From Nautiliaceae bacterium (lineage in GTDB: Bacteria; Campylobacterota; Campylobacteria; Campylobacterales; Nautiliaceae): a stretch of DNA of 11,575 nucleotides. A model generated the notes under the pieces. It did not search any database, was not told the origin of the DNA, and saw only the letters and a program-made list of their open reading frames with translations. Positions 3,762-9,944 of this stretch are shown here, piece by piece; the stretch's first letter is position 1; every line of letters begins with the position of its first letter. The stretch is from the NCBI GenBank assembly GCA_027063075.1, contig JAMOSM010000086.1, forward strand, positions 1 through 11,575. The letters run 5' to 3'. A program made the position numbers and the translations under genes.

Positions 3762-4541
3762 ATGGTAGATTTACACAATCACACACCTCTTTGCAACCAC
3801 GCACAGGGAAAACCTCAGGAGTATATTAAAAATGCAATAAAAAAAGGGATTAAAATATACGGTTTTGCCGACCACGCTCCTATGGAATTTGATAAAAAAT
3901 ATAGAATGAGTTTTAATGATATGAAAAATTACGAAAACGAAATAAACTCATTAAAAAAACAATATAAAGACAAAATAAAAATTTTACTTGGATACGAAGT
4001 GGATTTTACCCCTACAAAATATCTTGATAAAAGAGTATTAACAGCAGATGTTGATTATTTAATAGGAAGTGTTCATTTTCTTGATAACTGGGGATTTGAT
4101 AATCCTGAATTTATAAAAGAGTGGGAAGATAGAGATGTTGATGATGTTTATAAAGAGTATTTTGAGTACATAGAAAAAATGGCATCATCAAAACTCTTTC
4201 AGATAGTAGGACACATTGACCTTGTCAAAGTATTTGGTCACAAACCGAAAAAAAATATAAAAGACATTGCAAAAAACGCCATTAAAGCTATAAAAAAAGC
4301 CAATATGGCAGTTGAAATAAATACAGCAGGGCTAAGAAAACCTGTAAAAGAACTTTATCCATCGGATGAGCTACTTGAGATGATAATAGATGAAGGTATT
4401 GATATTACACTAAGCTCAGACGCCCACTCTCCTGAGCAAGTTGGCTTTGGATATGAAGTGGCTCTAGAGAAATTAAAAAAATTTTCAGTAAATAAACTTG
4501 TATATTTTGAAAAAAAACAAAAACATTATATTGATGTATAA
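3762..4541 (+). CDS. hisK: Histidinol-phosphatase, PHP family (HisK/HisJ type)
   Basis: A 259-residue PHP-domain protein that most likely converts L-histidinol phosphate to histidinol in histidine biosynthesis. The metal ligands of the PHP fold are all present: H5-N-H7 in D-L-H-N-H-T, H13, D37-H38, E79, H105 in G-S-V-H-F-L, H151-x-D153, and D220-A-H222 in S-S-D-A-H-S. The segments C-N-H-A, D-N-W-G-F-D-N-P and E-I-N-T-A-G-L-R-K are typical of the histidinol-phosphatase branch rather than the polymerase-linked PHP domains. It starts 14 bases after the predicted transcription start with only a weak AAAAGG-type site. It is the first gene of the plus-strand group; no other his genes are nearby, which is common in this phylum. 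The exact substrate rests on family resemblance. Confidence 0.86.
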   Translation: MVDLHNHTPLCNHAQGKPQEYIKNAIKKGIKIYGFADHAPMEFDKKYRMSFNDMKNYENEINSLKKQYKDKIKILLGYEVDFTPTKYLDKRVLTADVDYLIGSVHFLDNWGFDNPEFIKEWEDRDVDDVYKEYFEYIEKMASSKLFQIVGHIDLVKVFGHKPKKNIKDIAKNAIKAIKKANMAVEINTAGLRKPVKELYPSDELLEMIIDEGIDITLSSDAHSPEQVGFGYEVALEKLKKFSVNKLVYFEKKQKHYIDV

Positions 4542-4562: not shown

Positions 4563-5819
4563 ATGATTTATTTAAGCCTTCTAATGGCTATTCGGTTTTT
4601 AGGGCTTTTTATTGTAATGCCTGTCCTTGCTATTTATGCGATGCATTTAGCAGGGGCTGATGAATTTAGTGTAGGGGTTGCACTTGGTGCTTATGCTTTG
4701 TCTCAGATATTTTTGCAAATTCCTTTTGGAAAACTTGCCGATAAATACGATAAAAAACTTATTTTGGTAGTCGGACTTTTCTTACTTTTTCTTGGAAGTT
4801 TGGTGTGTGCCTTTTCAACAAACATTTATATGCTCATTTTTGGAAGACTGCTTCAAGGAGCAGGAGCAATTGGAGGGGTTATTTTAGCTTATATTGCAGA
4901 CCTTACAGATGAAAACACCCGTGCAAAAGCGTTTGCGAGAATGGGTCAGTTTATTGCGTTAAGCTTTGCTGTTTCTATGATACTTGGACCTACTATTGGT
5001 GCAAAATACGGAGTTGATAAACTCTTTTTATTAACCGCCTTTTTGGCTTTAGTTTCAATATGGATTGTTATAAAAAAAGTACCTCCAGCTCCAAAAATCG
5101 TTCATCATATGCCACAAAACACTTCTTTAAAAGATATTTTAAAACACAAAGAACTATTAAAACTATTCTTTTCAGGTTTTATGCAAAAAGGGCTTATGAG
5201 CGTATTTTTCCTTTTAATTCCTTTAATTTTTACAAAAATTTTCGGATGGGACAAAACTGAACTTTACAAAGTTTATATACCTGCCCTTGTCTTTGGATTT
5301 TTTGCACTTCCTATGGGAGCTATTTTGGCTGAAAAAAAAGGTAAAGGAAAATTTGTATTTATCTTATCGGCTGTTAGTATCACTTTGGCTTTAGTGCTTT
5401 TTTTAATAGGAGTTGAAATCAAAAACTACTTAGTAGCGTTAATTGGAGTAATTGCATTTTTCTTTGGATTCAATCTTCTTGAGCCTGTGCTTCAAAGCTT
5501 TGTCAGTAAAGTTGCTATGGCTCATCAAAAAGCGACAGCCCTTTCTACTTCAAACACAATCCAATACCTTGGAATTTTCTTAGGAGGCGCAGTTGCCGGA
5601 TGGTTTTTAAACAAGGGAATGTTAAAAGAGTTTTTGATTTTTGCTACTTTTATAGGAATTTTGTGGATAATTGCCATTATAAAAATGAAACCTGTTAAAA
5701 AATTTAAAATAGTAGAATATGAAAACTTCGACAAAAACTTTATTGAAGAGCTTAAAACTGAAAAAAATGTATATGATTTTTATGAAAAAGACGGAAAATT
5801 AATAGTTAGATATTTTTAG
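4563..5819 (+). CDS. MFS transporter, YajR-like, with cytosolic C-terminal tail
   Basis: A 418-residue major facilitator with about twelve hydrophobic segments in the inner membrane, probably a proton-coupled exporter; the substrate cannot be read from the sequence. Motif A between helices 2 and 3 is G56-K-L-A-D-K-Y-D-K-K65, with aspartate at the usual glycine position. Motif B is R95 in G-R-L-L-Q-G-A-G. A motif C-like S-M-I-L-G-P-T-I-G in helix 5 supports a drug:H+ antiporter-like family. After the last helix (about residue 376) a soluble tail of some 40 residues follows with a strand-helix-strand look, reminiscent of a shortened YAM domain of YajR. It starts 21 bases after the phosphatase with AAAGGAT. 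Its stop codon overlaps the flgI promoter, so it may read through into flagellar genes. Confidence 0.88.
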   Translation: MIYLSLLMAIRFLGLFIVMPVLAIYAMHLAGADEFSVGVALGAYALSQIFLQIPFGKLADKYDKKLILVVGLFLLFLGSLVCAFSTNIYMLIFGRLLQGAGAIGGVILAYIADLTDENTRAKAFARMGQFIALSFAVSMILGPTIGAKYGVDKLFLLTAFLALVSIWIVIKKVPPAPKIVHHMPQNTSLKDILKHKELLKLFFSGFMQKGLMSVFFLLIPLIFTKIFGWDKTELYKVYIPALVFGFFALPMGAILAEKKGKGKFVFILSAVSITLALVLFLIGVEIKNYLVALIGVIAFFFGFNLLEPVLQSFVSKVAMAHQKATALSTSNTIQYLGIFLGGAVAGWFLNKGMLKEFLIFATFIGILWIIAIIKMKPVKKFKIVEYENFDKNFIEELKTEKNVYDFYEKDGKLIVRYF

Positions 5820-5833
5820 GAACACTTTTTGCT
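5819..5833 (+). promoter_or_regulatory. Sigma-54 (RpoN) promoter of flgI
   Basis: GGAACACTTTTTGCT has the invariant GG (5819-5820) and GC (5831-5832) separated by exactly ten bases, and agrees closely with the RpoN consensus used by Campylobacter and Helicobacter rod/hook genes. The first G is the last base of the MFS stop codon. Twelve bases past the -12 C puts the transcription start at about 5844, giving a 13-base leader that contains AAAAGG in front of the TTG start. Confidence 0.8.
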
Positions 5834-5855
5834 GTGCCTTTTAAAAAGGCACGGC
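5831..5855 (+). promoter_or_regulatory. Hairpin covering the flgI ribosome-binding site
   Basis: An 11-bp stem with one G-U pair and a three-base loop: 5831-5841 pairs with 5845-5855 (arms GCTGTGCCTTT and AAAGGCACGGC). The right arm contains AAGG, the only Shine-Dalgarno candidate for flgI. No T-run follows on either strand, so it is not a normal terminator. RNA that starts upstream would fold and hide the site; RNA starting at the sigma-54 start (about 5844) lacks the left arm. Confidence 0.6.
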
Positions 5856-5856
5856 T

Positions 5857-6807
5857 TTGAGAATTTTAATACTGATTTTTTTTGCTGTAATATTAAACGC
5901 ACAAAAGATAAAAGATGTAGCCTCTGTTGTTGGAGTTAGAGACAACCAGCTTATAGGATACGGACTTGTAGTAGGTCTTAACGGCAGTGGCGACAGTTCT
6001 TCAAAATTTACAAACCAAACCCTCTCAAACCTTCTTAAAAACGTAAATGTAAAACTTGACCCAAAAGACATAAAATCAAAAAACGTAGCGGCTGTAATGG
6101 TAACTGCAACACTCCCTCCATTTGCAAGGGAAGGAGACAAAATTGATGTAACAGTATCTTCAATAGGAGATGCAAAATCTCTTCAAGGGGGAGTTTTGCT
6201 TATAACTCCACTAAAAGGAGTTAATGGAAAAATCTACGCCCTTGCACAAGGTCCAATTACAATGGGCGGATTTAATCTAAAAGGCGGTAAAAAGCAAAAA
6301 CATTTCACAACAACAGTTAAGGTATTAAACGGGGCTACAGTCGAAAGAGCAGTTGTATGGGATATTTACCATCAAAATTTTGCAACTTTATCATTAAAAA
6401 AAAGCGATTTTAAACTTGCAATAAACGTTCAAAAAACAATCAACTCATTTTTTAAACAAAAAGTGGCAATAGCAATAGACCCAAGAACCGTAAAACTTAA
6501 AAAACCAGAAAAGCTCTCTATGCCTGAATTTTTAGCTCAGATTGAAGATTTAAACGTAAATGTTCCAAAAGAGGCGATTATTGTAATTGATGAAAGAACA
6601 GGAACGGTTGTTGCTGGAAGTGATATAATGGTAGAACCTACGGTAATTATTTATGGAGATTTCACAATAAAAATTACAAAAAAAACAACTGTTTTAGAAC
6701 TTACTCAAAATTTACAAAAAGTAAAAGCATCTCCACAGGATGTAATTGCTATACTTGAAAATTTAAGAGCGTCTAATGCCATTAATGCAAAACTTATAGT
6801 AAATTAA
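5857..6807 (+). CDS. flgI: Flagellar P-ring protein FlgI
   Basis: FlgI forms the periplasmic P-ring bushing around the rod. Residues 1-15 are a short signal peptide (M-R, hydrophobic core, N-A|Q). The mature protein opens with I-K-D-V-A-S-V-V-G-V-R-D-N-Q-L-I-G-Y-G-L, a hallmark of the family, and continues with T-L-P-P-F-A-R-E-G-D-K-I-D-V, the S-L-Q-G-G-x-L-L-x-T-P-L block and I-Y-A-L-A-Q-G-P-I. At 316 residues it is shorter than the usual 345-365. It has no cysteine at all, so it lacks the disulfide that stabilises the enterobacterial protein. The start is TTG at 5857: no ATG or GTG exists in frame between the upstream stop (5842-5844) and the signal peptide. Expression is likely RpoN-dependent. 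Fourteenth-position-type gene order (flgI-flgJ-flgM) matches Cj1462 onward. Confidence 0.95.
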   Translation: MRILILIFFAVILNAQKIKDVASVVGVRDNQLIGYGLVVGLNGSGDSSSKFTNQTLSNLLKNVNVKLDPKDIKSKNVAAVMVTATLPPFAREGDKIDVTVSSIGDAKSLQGGVLLITPLKGVNGKIYALAQGPITMGGFNLKGGKKQKHFTTTVKVLNGATVERAVVWDIYHQNFATLSLKKSDFKLAINVQKTINSFFKQKVAIAIDPRTVKLKKPEKLSMPEFLAQIEDLNVNVPKEAIIVIDERTGTVVAGSDIMVEPTVIIYGDFTIKITKKTTVLELTQNLQKVKASPQDVIAILENLRASNAINAKLIVN

Positions 6808-6816
6808 GGAGCAAAA

Positions 6817-7080
6817 ATGAAAATAAACCTAAACACCTTTGAGACATCAAACTACAAAAATGAAAATCTAAAAAAACTAAAAGAGGTTTGCGACAAATTT
6901 GAAAGTGAAATTTTAAACTTTTATCTAAAAGAGGCAATGGATTCTAAAGAAAGCCTTTTTCCAAAATCTGCGGGAGAAAAGATTTACAAATCAATGTACC
7001 AAGAAAATCTATCTCAGGAAATAAGCGGAAATTTTGGATATTCAAAGCTTTTGTTTGATTATTTAAAACAAAAAATTTAA
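6817..7080 (+). CDS. flgJ: Flagellar rod-binding protein FlgJ, short form
   Basis: An 87-residue protein equal to the N-terminal rod-binding domain of FlgJ, which caps and scaffolds the growing rod. Seen: C-D-K-F-E-S-E-I-L-N-F-Y-L-K-E-A-M, then G-E-K-I-Y-K-S-M-Y and the closing Q-E-I-S-G-N-F-G-Y-S-K-L-L. The C-terminal muramidase domain of enterobacterial FlgJ is absent, as is normal in epsilonproteobacteria, where a separate enzyme clears peptidoglycan. The GGAG site sits at the stop of flgI and the genes are nine bases apart, so both are probably made from the same RpoN-driven mRNA. The 3' end of the gene contains the -35 region of the next promoter. Confidence 0.9.
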   Translation: MKINLNTFETSNYKNENLKKLKEVCDKFESEILNFYLKEAMDSKESLFPKSAGEKIYKSMYQENLSQEISGNFGYSKLLFDYLKQKI

Positions 7081-7122: not shown

Positions 7123-7305
7123 ATGATAAGAAAAATTTCAACATCAACAAGTTTTGAAGCTATGCAGTTTAAAAAACCAAACATAAAAACTCAACAGACT
7201 CAGACAATATCAAGGGTTGAGGAGATAAAAAGAGCCATTAACAAAGGAGAATACAAAACAGATATTCAACAAACCGCAAAAGCTATGGCAAAGGCTCTTT
7301 TATAA
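7123..7305 (+). CDS. flgM: Anti-sigma-28 factor FlgM
   Basis: A 60-residue protein, shorter than enterobacterial FlgM (97). FlgM binds FliA and holds it inactive until the hook is finished, when FlgM is exported (or otherwise relieved). The N-terminal half (1-30) is polar and disordered-looking, as expected for the exported part. The C-terminal half, S-R-V-E-E-I-K-R-A-I-N-K-G-E-Y at about 31-45 followed by D-I-Q-Q-T-A-K-A-M-A-K-A-L-L, is the helical sigma-binding region with the family's I-x-x-G-x-Y signature. An AAGAAGG site sets the start. It is preceded by its own sigma-28 promoter, which would give the usual negative feedback loop on FliA, and by flgJ as in Campylobacter (Cj1463-Cj1464). 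Confidence 0.88.
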   Translation: MIRKISTSTSFEAMQFKKPNIKTQQTQTISRVEEIKRAINKGEYKTDIQQTAKAMAKALL

Positions 7306-7333: not shown

Positions 7334-7744
7334 ATGTTAATACAAAAATTAAACCAAACAATTGCCATCTTAAACGAACTTATAAAAATAACAGATGAAG
7401 ATATTAAAAATATAAAACAGGCAAAACACGAAGAAGTTTTTAAAAACACCAAATTAAAAGAAGAGCTTGCTAAAAATTTTTCTGTTTTAAAAAGTGAAAT
7501 AGATTCAATACTTGTAGCAAGAAACAGACCAATAGAGAGTATTTTTTCACCTGAAGAAGAAATTTTGTTTAATGAATTCAAAGAAAAATTAAATATTTTT
7601 TATAAAAAACACAAACTATTTTCCCGCTTAGCTTTAAGCGTTGCAAATTTTTATAATACTTTAGTAAATAAAATAAAACAAGAAGAGCAAATAAGTTATA
7701 CAGAAAAAGCCAATTTTAATTCAAATCTTTCTTTAAGGGCTTAA
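7334..7744 (+). CDS. flgN: FlgN-like export chaperone (position and fold)
   Basis: A 136-residue, entirely helical, charged protein lying between flgM and flgK, where the FlgN-type chaperone is found (Cj1465 in Campylobacter). FlgN binds the C-termini of FlgK and FlgL and delivers them to the flagellar export gate. Identity to well-studied FlgN is low by eye; the evidence is helix content (two long amphipathic stretches at about 1-60 and 70-125), length typical of the family and position. The start follows AAAGGGG. The stop codon is one base from the flgK ATG, so chaperone and client are made together. No signal peptide or membrane segment. A different flagellar chaperone is the main alternative. 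Confidence 0.75.
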   Translation: MLIQKLNQTIAILNELIKITDEDIKNIKQAKHEEVFKNTKLKEELAKNFSVLKSEIDSILVARNRPIESIFSPEEEILFNEFKEKLNIFYKKHKLFSRLALSVANFYNTLVNKIKQEEQISYTEKANFNSNLSLRA

Positions 7745-7745
7745 A

Positions 7746-9944
7746 ATGGCAATTTCATCATCCCTCTCAACCGCCTTAAGCGGACTTAACGCTCATCAAA
7801 CAGCAATTCAAACCACTTCAAACAACATATCAAACGCCTCAAACCCCGATTATGTAAGAGAAAGGGCTGTTTTTAATTCCCTGCCTGCAATTAACTCAAT
7901 TCCAGGTGATATAGGCACAGGGGTTGAAATCAGCAAAATTTACAGAATTACCGATACATTTTTATTTAACAGATTATCCACAACCTCCACAACCTTTAAA
8001 AAATATGAAAATATGGAAAAATACTTAAAAGAAATTGCAACCTATTTTCCAGATGTTCAGGATGAAGGATTAGCCAAAGACATTGAAGAGTTTTTTAATG
8101 CATGGCAGACTCTATCTAACAATCCGAATGATTCAAGTGCAAAAGTGGTATTAGCCCAGGAATCCATAAAACTTAGCGACATTTTTCATCAGCTAACTCA
8201 AAAGCTAAAAGATATCCAAAAAAATATAAATAAAGATATAAAAGCTAAAACAGATGAAGCTAACAATATATTAAAACAGATAGCATCCTTAAACAAAGAC
8301 ATTACCAAAAACGAAGCTAATAACATCTCTTATGCAAATGAATTAAGAGACAAAAGAGACGCACTTGAGAAAAGATTAAAAGAAATTCTTGATGTAAAAA
8401 TTTATAAAACCGATATAAGTTCATACAACGCACAAGGAGAAGAGAGTATAGACTATTCAAAAGGATATGAAATCACACTAGGAGGATATGTTTTACTTGA
8501 AGGTAATGATTATAAAGAGCTTCACTTAATAGACAATAAAGGAAATTATGATATCGGCATAAAAAAAGACAACTACTCTTTAGCAAATATAACAAAAAAT
8601 ATAGGGGGTGAAATAGGCGGTCTTTTAGAAATAAGAGGGTATGAATTTAATGAAGACGGAAGCTCTAAAGACGGAAATATAGGAGATATGCTTTCATCTT
8701 TAAATGCTTTAGCCGAAGGAATGATTAGAAATATAAACTCAATTTATTCATACTCAGCCCAAGAAAACGTCCAAACAGACTCTTTATACACTCCAATAAG
8801 CATTTCATCAAAACTTGCAAACACTCCGCTGCCTATTGTAGAAAAAAAACTAAAACATCCAGTAAATGACGGAATAATGACACTCTCTACATATGATGAA
8901 AAAGGGAATCACATAAAAGACATTTCAATAAACATCGATTCTACAAAAAGTATAAATGAAATCATTGATGATATAAACAGCTCTATTTATAACAACGACA
9001 ATAATGCCAATTACGGAGCATATATTACAAACGGAGAAATCAAATTTGTAAAAGGAAGTTATGATAAAAACGGAAACTTCACCCCATCAACACCAACTCA
9101 GACATCTCCTAATATTTTAGTAAAAGATGACGGAAGTATGCTTTTTAGCGCTTTAGGGGAAATTGAATACATACCATTAAAACAGATAAATTCCACAGAC
9201 CTGCCTATACCTTTGCAAAACGGAAGTTTTGATGTAGTTGCTTATGATGAGAATGGAAACATTTTAGCAAAAAGAACAATAAACATAAATATGGATTCAA
9301 CAGACCCAAGATATTCAACAATACAGGGTATCATATCTCAAATAAACACCCCAAATATAGATGATAACAACGACAACAACTCAAATAACGACTTTGACGA
9401 TTTATATAAAGCCTCAATAGCCGGAGGCAAATTTTCTTTAATTCAAAAAGAGGAAAATATTTACGTAGGTTTAGATGAAGACAGTGCAAATTTTGGAGGT
9501 GCTTTTGGAATTAACAAATTTTTAAACGGAACAGATGCTGCTACAATAAATTTAAGAAAAGATTTAAAAAAAGACCCAAGCAAAATACACGCAAACAAAT
9601 CTCCGGCTCAAGGTGATAATGAAGTGGCAAATGCAATATTGCAGCTTCAAAGCAAAAAAATAACCTTTTACAAAGACAACCAGATTATAAACGATACAAT
9701 TTTAGGTTTTTACCGACAAACAACTTCATCGCTTGCTATAAAAACCCAAAATATAAGTGAAAAAAAAGAAACAACTTCAACATTATTAACAAGCATTCAA
9801 AATCAATATTACGCAATAAGCGGTGTAAATATAGATGAAGAGCTAATTAATCTTGAAAAATTTCAAAGAGGTTATCAGGCAAATGCCAAAGTAATCACAA
9901 CTATAAATCAAATGCTTGATGCCCTTTTTGGCATCAAGCAATAG
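7746..9944 (+). CDS. flgK: Flagellar hook-associated protein 1 FlgK (long form)
   Basis: FlgK forms the first junction layer between hook and filament. The N-terminal 45 residues (S-T-A-L-S-G-L-N-A-H-Q, then T-T-S-N-N-I-S-N-A-S-N-P-D-Y) and the C-terminal 45 (E-E-L-I-N-L-E-K-F-Q-R-G-Y-Q-A-N-A-K, ending M-L-D-A-L-F-G-I-K-Q) are the conserved D0/D1 coiled-coil parts. At 732 residues it is well above the usual 550-610; the excess is in the middle. Residues about 374-437 and 491-567 look like two copies of one domain (see findings), and 537-552 is an N/D-rich linker. No cysteine was noticed. The last gene of the sigma-28 group; its final codons form one arm-loop-arm of a perfect inverted repeat shared with the convergent gene. 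Confidence 0.96.
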   Translation: MAISSSLSTALSGLNAHQTAIQTTSNNISNASNPDYVRERAVFNSLPAINSIPGDIGTGVEISKIYRITDTFLFNRLSTTSTTFKKYENMEKYLKEIATYFPDVQDEGLAKDIEEFFNAWQTLSNNPNDSSAKVVLAQESIKLSDIFHQLTQKLKDIQKNINKDIKAKTDEANNILKQIASLNKDITKNEANNISYANELRDKRDALEKRLKEILDVKIYKTDISSYNAQGEESIDYSKGYEITLGGYVLLEGNDYKELHLIDNKGNYDIGIKKDNYSLANITKNIGGEIGGLLEIRGYEFNEDGSSKDGNIGDMLSSLNALAEGMIRNINSIYSYSAQENVQTDSLYTPISISSKLANTPLPIVEKKLKHPVNDGIMTLSTYDEKGNHIKDISINIDSTKSINEIIDDINSSIYNNDNNANYGAYITNGEIKFVKGSYDKNGNFTPSTPTQTSPNILVKDDGSMLFSALGEIEYIPLKQINSTDLPIPLQNGSFDVVAYDENGNILAKRTININMDSTDPRYSTIQGIISQINTPNIDDNNDNNSNNDFDDLYKASIAGGKFSLIQKEENIYVGLDEDSANFGGAFGINKFLNGTDAATINLRKDLKKDPSKIHANKSPAQGDNEVANAILQLQSKKITFYKDNQIINDTILGFYRQTTSSLAIKTQNISEKKETTSTLLTSIQNQYYAISGVNIDEELINLEKFQRGYQANAKVITTINQMLDALFGIKQ
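9913..9940. terminator. Convergent-gene hairpin, candidate bidirectional terminator
   Basis: TGCTTGATGCC (9913-9923) and GGCATCAAGCA (9930-9940) form a perfect 11-bp stem around the loop CTTTTT. It lies within the last codons of flgK and contains the stop codon (9936-9934) of the minus-strand gene. On the minus strand it is followed by a T-rich run (TTTGATTTATAG), which suits termination of the acidic-protein gene. On the plus strand no T-run follows, so termination of flgK there is less sure. Confidence 0.6.

Follow-up and report, generated by a model that had tools for sequence, protein, structure and literature searches.

The promoter of a presumed flagellar operon in a Nautiliaceae bacterium contains a sequence complementary to the ribosome-binding site of flgI, the first gene that it would serve. 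On sequence evidence we regard it as probable that this arrangement forms a cis-acting, start-site-dependent translation gate, which would insulate the sigma-54 operon flgI-flgJ-flgM-flgN-flgK from a non-flagellar neighbour. The window (the whole stretch of DNA analysed, 11,575 nucleotides) comes from a draft genome of 1.23 Mb that is ~70% complete. The translation switch itself is a well-supported prediction, and comparison among related genomes supports it.

Only 37 nt separate the stop codon of the upstream MFS transporter gene from the start of flgI, and promoter, hairpin and Shine-Dalgarno (SD) sequence are all packed into this gap plus the final base of the MFS stop (Table 1). Profile matches back the genes of the window; the names flaB, flgB, flgD, flgE, flgL, fliK and fliW and those of upstream neighbours were assigned by eye. 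The window contains no Rfam match at gathering score. At 3762-3804, open reading frames overlap on both strands, one weakly CheZ-like (minus strand, GTG start) and one for a PHP-domain protein (plus strand); the GTG start is probably placed too early.

Table 1. Coordinates of the genes and signals around flgI in the window.
Feature	Position	Strand	Basis and remarks
MFS transporter gene	4563..5819	+	PF07690, E 2e-45; stop codon overlaps promoter; presumed read-through source
Sigma-54 (RpoN) promoter GG-N10-GC, AGGAACACTTTTTGC	5819..5832	+	Sequence; GG-N8-TTGC in 20/20 near flgI loci
Hairpin left arm (anti-SD)	5831..5841	+	Folds, shuffle and donor nulls; lies between -12 element and +1
Predicted sigma-54 +1	5844	+	Last loop base; 12-nt rule, taken as given; geometry recurs in 20/20
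Hairpin right arm	5845..5855	+	Fold; holds SD and most of the SD-start spacer
Shine-Dalgarno AAGG, sole flgI SD	5846..5849	+	Mean unpaired probability 0.01 in read-through RNA, 0.89 in sigma-54 RNA
flgI, flagellar P-ring protein, TTG start	5857..6807	+	PF02119, E 4e-107
flgJ-type rod-binding protein gene	6817..7080	+	PF10135, E 5e-7; presumed flgI operon
flgM, anti-sigma-28 factor	7123..7305	+	PF04316, E 2e-7, above cut-off; presumed flgI operon
flgN-like chaperone gene, weak match	7334..7744	+	PF05130, E 0.002, below cut-off; position before flgK
flgK, hook-filament junction protein	7746..9944	+	PF22638, E 2e-41

A first-pass annotation of this DNA had placed a GG-N10-GC RpoN promoter on the MFS stop codon, and the site is confirmed: the G of the TAG (5817-5819) also opens the -24 GG (5819-5820), which is followed by N10 and the GC at 5831-5832, with a fuller match reading AGGAACACTTTTTGCT. 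RpoN (Sigma54_DBD, PF04552) is encoded in the window's own genome (G000; E 7e-51) and in 14 of the 21 family genomes; sites of the type GGAAYNNNNNTTGCT outnumber those of the reversed control by 44:2 (G001), 20:2 (G000), 24:5 (G002) and 19:9 (G017). One member of the window's genus, G004, which is 99% complete, gave no match to flgI, flagellin, flgB or RpoN; judged from its gene content, sigma-54 may have been lost along with the flagellum. Folding likewise bears out the proposed hairpin over 5831-5855, in which 11 bp, including one G-U, enclose a 3-nt loop and pair the only SD of flgI. We place the transcription start 12 nt downstream of the C in the -12 GC. Because the predicted +1 is the last loop base, the left arm would be missing from sigma-54 RNA. 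The TTG start, placed by the first-pass annotation 13 bases past the predicted start, is at 5857-5859 (+14 when 5844 is +1) and is the only ATG, GTG or TTG start in the signal-peptide part, because an in-frame TAA occupies 5842-5844.

To expose the SD costs 9.25 kcal/mol in read-through RNA, folded with 50 nt upstream and 60 nt downstream, whereas it costs 0.24 kcal/mol in RNA from the predicted +1. The former value varies with flank length between 5.8 and 10.6 kcal/mol, so that its size is uncertain and its direction is not, and the gap supports in silico the earlier proposal that read-through RNA hides the SD and RpoN RNA leaves it open. An error of a few bases in the start site is immaterial, since any 5' end within 5838-5846 gives an SD cost of ≤0.45 kcal/mol. 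At 60 °C the costs are 6.8 and 0.2 kcal/mol for read-through and sigma-54 RNA, respectively, and the gap is kept in silico throughout 50-70 °C. Opening the entire stretch from SD to start requires 7.0 kcal/mol without upstream sequence and 14.8-16.9 kcal/mol with it. Two of 200 dinucleotide shuffles of the 84-nt region fold equally well (z -2.85). When shuffling is confined to the -24/-12 spacer and the -11 to -1 stretch, none of 200 closes the SD equally, and none of 55 natural left regions donated by flgB and flaB genes is as closed as that of the window.

A stable stem that begins 12 nt past the MFS stop codon and is followed by three T could also end MFS transcription as an intrinsic terminator that covers the flgI SD only incidentally. 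We consider this very unlikely: the tail reads TTTGAGAATTTT, with no T run straight after the stem, and the hairpin is absent from the output of the terminator scan. Moreover, the other five stems found in the genus extend to the start codon or stop a few bases short of it and lack a T run behind them, and their arms pair with the SD, which termination does not need.

For the translation gate we propose the following sequence of events. MFS messages should enter flgI, because the terminator scan lists no intrinsic terminator between the two genes. In such read-through RNA the -13 to -3 sequence of the promoter would act as an anti-SD, closing on the flgI SD in the 11-bp hairpin and keeping ribosomes from initiating there; Rho-dependent polarity may then eliminate the untranslated RNA across the remaining operon. 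A ribosome terminating at the MFS stop codon could disturb the outer pairs of the hairpin. RNA started by RpoN at 5844 would begin in the loop, without the left arm and with AAAAGG at its 5' end, and would be translated. The same promoter DNA would thus have two jobs, as the -12 region for RpoN and as an anti-SD against unwanted RNA.

Comparison with near relatives provides evidence for the pairing. Twenty upstream regions were compared, from the 19 of 21 family genomes in which flgI is present and from one more distant genome (L027); we left out of the counts duplicate copies of loci in the whole-genome set (L009-L017) and two stretches with no sigma-54 site (L020 and L029, the latter a short partial match). 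All 20 have GG-N8-TTGC, an SD at +2 to +9 and a start codon at +13 to +19. The hairpin is kept in all six genomes of the window's genus that have flgI, and in five of these, read by eye from individual folds, the arms vary in sequence and length with both sides matching. The -12 GC and the SD are paired in each of the five; the stretches in between are equally long in the two arms (4, 2, 5, 3 and 2 nt) and read (left/right) TGTG/CACG in the window, TG/CG in L031, TTTAG/CTAAA in L032, TAG/CTT with one mismatch in L033 and TG/CA in L034, so that 15 of 16 positions pair. In the sixth member, L038, AACGCCTTTTGC of the promoter pairs with GCAAAAAGGCGTT instead, and in L046 and L047, from another genus, AACACCTTTTGC pairs with GCAAAAAGGTGTT, a compensatory change relative to L038. 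The left arm of these three is the -24/-12 spacer, and the position of the stem thus shifts. As far as sequence comparison goes, the matched arm changes within the genus would be hard to explain without RNA pairing.

The same comparison bears on the idea that the inverted repeat is a DNA operator, bound by a dimeric regulator in the region where RpoN starts transcription. Such an operator would account for a near-perfect repeat centred on the initial melting region of the promoter; we give the idea hardly any credence, as sister species have arms of different sequence and length that share only the -12 TTGC and AAGG, and the place of the stem moves in L038, L046 and L047. A G-U pair, unexpected under DNA symmetry, is present in five of the six genus stems, a count biased by a folding program that seeks such pairs.

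Returning to the pairing of anti-SD and SD, we shuffled each near-relative upstream region 200 times, keeping the -24/-12 motifs and the leader unchanged. At p ≤ 0.01 (no more than 2 of 200 shuffles close the SD as well), 13 of the 20 loci stand out: the full six from the genus of the window, that of L027, and six among the remaining 13. Exchange of upstream halves lowered the mean SD cost from 6.47 (cognate) to 4.21 kcal/mol (swapped), and none of 20,000 permutations reached the cognate value; together with the matched changes in arm length, this upholds the expectation that the pairing covaries in relatives. The differential effect is not uniform. In L033, pairing of the SD is predicted for the two RNAs alike (unpaired 0.01 and 0.02), the sigma-54 RNAs of L038, L046 and L047 still cost 3.0-4.1 kcal/mol, and in L036 (0.8 in read-through against 3.4 kcal/mol in sigma-54 RNA) and L043 (0.2 against 1.2 kcal/mol) it is the read-through RNA that is more open. 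The first-pass annotation had named relatives that retain the promoter without the left arm as evidence that would count against its proposal: at p ≤ 0.01, 13 of the 20 keep both, and 7 (L035, L036, L037, L040, L043, L044 and L048) keep the promoter with no clear hairpin. All seven belong to the 13 genomes without an abutting MFS gene, which weakens universality and fits an insulator against read-through.

We extended the analysis to the class by hand-picking 80 of 134 flgI-matched genomes outside the family, first one or two per genus and then more. Thirteen lacked an anchor, an SD or a sigma-54 site, which left 67 scored loci. As a control with the same promoter type we used 58 flgB loci (18 family, 40 class), of which 10 could not be scored and 48 remained. 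Counts of loci are not independent, as the genomes share ancestry. In shuffles of class flgI, 23 of 67 loci reached p ≤ 0.05 and 11 reached p ≤ 0.01, 44 falling short of p ≤ 0.05, with a mean excess of 1.57 kcal/mol. The corresponding counts for flgB were 6 of 48 (4/18 family, 2/30 class) and 2 of 48, with a mean excess of 0.08 kcal/mol. Nine Hydrogenimonas-type flgI loci gave 5/9 at p ≤ 0.025, with a marginal swap test (1,090 of 20,000 permutations). A second null, in which natural upstream halves of other genes served as donors (55 in the case of flgI and 60 drawn elsewhere; L023 excluded for its short upstream stretch), gave p ≤ 0.05 in 13/20 near, 4/8 Hydrogenimonas-type and 26/67 class flgI loci, in 5/7 flaB loci and in none of the 48 flgB loci (0/18 family, 0/30 class); this null overstates the contrast, because the flgB donors include flgI and flaB arms.

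These nulls also address the suspicion that the pairing is a functionless by-product of complementarity between a T-rich -12 element and an A/G-rich SD. TTTTGC can indeed pair with GCAAAA, CCTTTT spacers pair with any AAAAGG, and 7 of the 20 near relatives show nothing beyond -12/SD complementarity. That this is the whole explanation is scarcely credible, given that the shuffles hold the -12 and SD motifs fixed, that swapped promoters pair less well and that flgB, with the same type of promoter, shows little excess.

Beyond flgI, 5 of 7 scored sigma-54 flagellin loci of Nautiliaceae reached p ≤ 0.05 in shuffles, with arms that differ among them; in L142-L145 and L153 the anti-SD arm lies between -12 and +1, as at flgI. 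Judged from sequence, the hairpin device appears to recur, with unrelated arms, ahead of a sigma-54 flagellin as well as ahead of flgI in other families. Single-species anti-SD arms were seen at flgL (p 0.00), at fliK (p 0.00) and, less surely, at fliW (p 0.06; the loci are L105, L084 and L132). Among 107 GGAAYNNNNNTTGCT sites in four genomes, 93 were taken as loci and 53 passed the start and SD filter (4 flgI, 3 flaB and 46 other places); 6 of the 46 others reached p ≤ 0.05, little above chance. In some Hydrogenimonas-type flgI loci (L018, L023, L028) and in L172 the leader is longer, the start codon is TTG or GTG, and an additional G+C-rich hairpin separates the anti-SD arm from the SD.

The hairpin might instead belong to the normal flgI message as a regulated leader, either a CsrA target or a thermosensor, transcribed from a main start further upstream. 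PMC4894983 reports that the flgI leader of Campylobacter jejuni binds CsrA near the SD. Flagellin leaders without a sigma-54 site, which in at least G001 and G002 lie just upstream of the sigma-54 flagellin, carry AAGGA between short arms; in L149, L150, L161 and L163 these arms are roughly complementary and precede a second AAAAGGAG, by eye resembling a CsrA-type leader. We nevertheless judge a regulated leader highly improbable at flgI, where the sigma-54 site is present in 20/20 and an SD at +2 to +9 puts the left arm upstream of +1. CsrA sites usually lie in a hairpin loop, and the window SD reads AAGGC within the stem, with no loop-exposed GGA. The read-through SD is still closed in silico at 60-70 °C, its opening requiring 6.3 kcal/mol at 70 °C, which would speak against a thermosensor that opens at vent temperatures.

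If the gate guards against read-through, its occurrence might follow the neighbouring gene. The hairpin is present in 7/7 near genomes in which the MFS gene ends ≤10 nt from the promoter, 6 of the 7 being of one genus, and in 6/13 with a spacer of 23-318 nt (Fisher 0.044). In the class set, abutting was defined as a co-directional ORF ending within 20 nt of the promoter, a cut-off of our choosing, and half of the loci cover only ~300 nt upstream. Abutted flgI loci had the hairpin in 17/41 (mean excess 2.12 kcal/mol) and the remainder in 6/26 (mean 0.71 kcal/mol; Mann-Whitney 0.002, a statistic that ignores ancestry). A rule by which an abutting gene brings a hairpin fails: none of 11 abutting flgB genes has one, and flaB carries the hairpin and yet sits 61-140 nt from its neighbour. 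By eye, the upstream ORFs at 14 picked class loci, with and without hairpin, look non-flagellar (8/14 an RsmD-like methyltransferase), and the single-species cases adjoin what looks like a chemotaxis receptor (flgL and fliK) or an antiporter (fliW). Behind a hook-like gene, flgE of G001 and G000 has no hairpin; in G001 a fliK-like gene precedes flgD, whose weak arm (p 0.01) runs counter to a simple neighbour rule. In L035-L037 and L039-L048 the spacers between MFS stop and flgI promoter contain strikingly little G (pooled values: G 7.3%, C 24.6% and T 41%), and repeats resembling CCACCCATC occur in some; they may be sites of Rho loading, or repeats. The suggestion that relatives lacking the hairpin rely on a C/T-rich, rut-like spacer in its stead goes no further than base composition.

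Other systems work on a similar principle. According to the review PMC3014915, the long early RNA of T4 gene e (lysozyme) folds its ribosome-binding site into a hairpin that cuts synthesis 100-fold, RNA from the late promoter lacks the 5' strand of the hairpin and is translated, and I-TevI, soc and 49 are further T4 genes of this type. As in that account, the SD is paired in silico in the longer flgI RNA; by predicted geometry, the proximal start would lie downstream of the left arm. Unlike gene e with its phage late promoters, flgI heads a bacterial flagellar operon under RpoN, and its -12 element can itself form part of the anti-SD. In the fold-back inhibition of IS10/Tn10, external read-through RNA hides the ribosome-binding site of the transposase and RNA from the native promoter does not; there a mobile element guards its own transposition, whereas flgI belongs to a sigma-factor regulon. 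CsrA/FliW control in Campylobacter jejuni acts at SD-proximal RNA sites of the flgI and flagellin leaders (PMC4894983). It concerns the same genes and SD-proximal RNA, but is protein-dependent and acts on the gene's own message, unlike the flgI hairpin. In the open-access literature searched we recognised no description of such a hairpin device at a flagellar or sigma-54 gene; the flgI case differs from T4 gene e and IS10 in its setting, a core flagellar RpoN operon, and in a -12 region that would serve two purposes.

More tentatively, and with somewhat less than even confidence, we suggest a Campylobacterota-wide insulator, with promoter-embedded anti-SD arms where an alternative-sigma gene closely follows a gene of another regulon. 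The sequence from -12 to +1 would evolve into a counterpart of the ribosome site just behind it, and a message would be licensed only by the promoter of its own gene; this would be clearest at flgI and sigma-54 flaB, with the single-species copies at flgL, fliK and fliW in addition. In compact bacterial genomes, genes of different regulons stand head to tail, and how a gene under an alternative sigma factor escapes read-through from its neighbour is seldom clear. If our reading is true, the DNA of a promoter would itself encode a translational veto on RNA started elsewhere, and the 5' ends of transcripts, not their levels, would decide protein output. Operon maps and RNA-seq counts would then overstate the expression of gated genes, and a phage trick would have been brought into core bacterial regulation.
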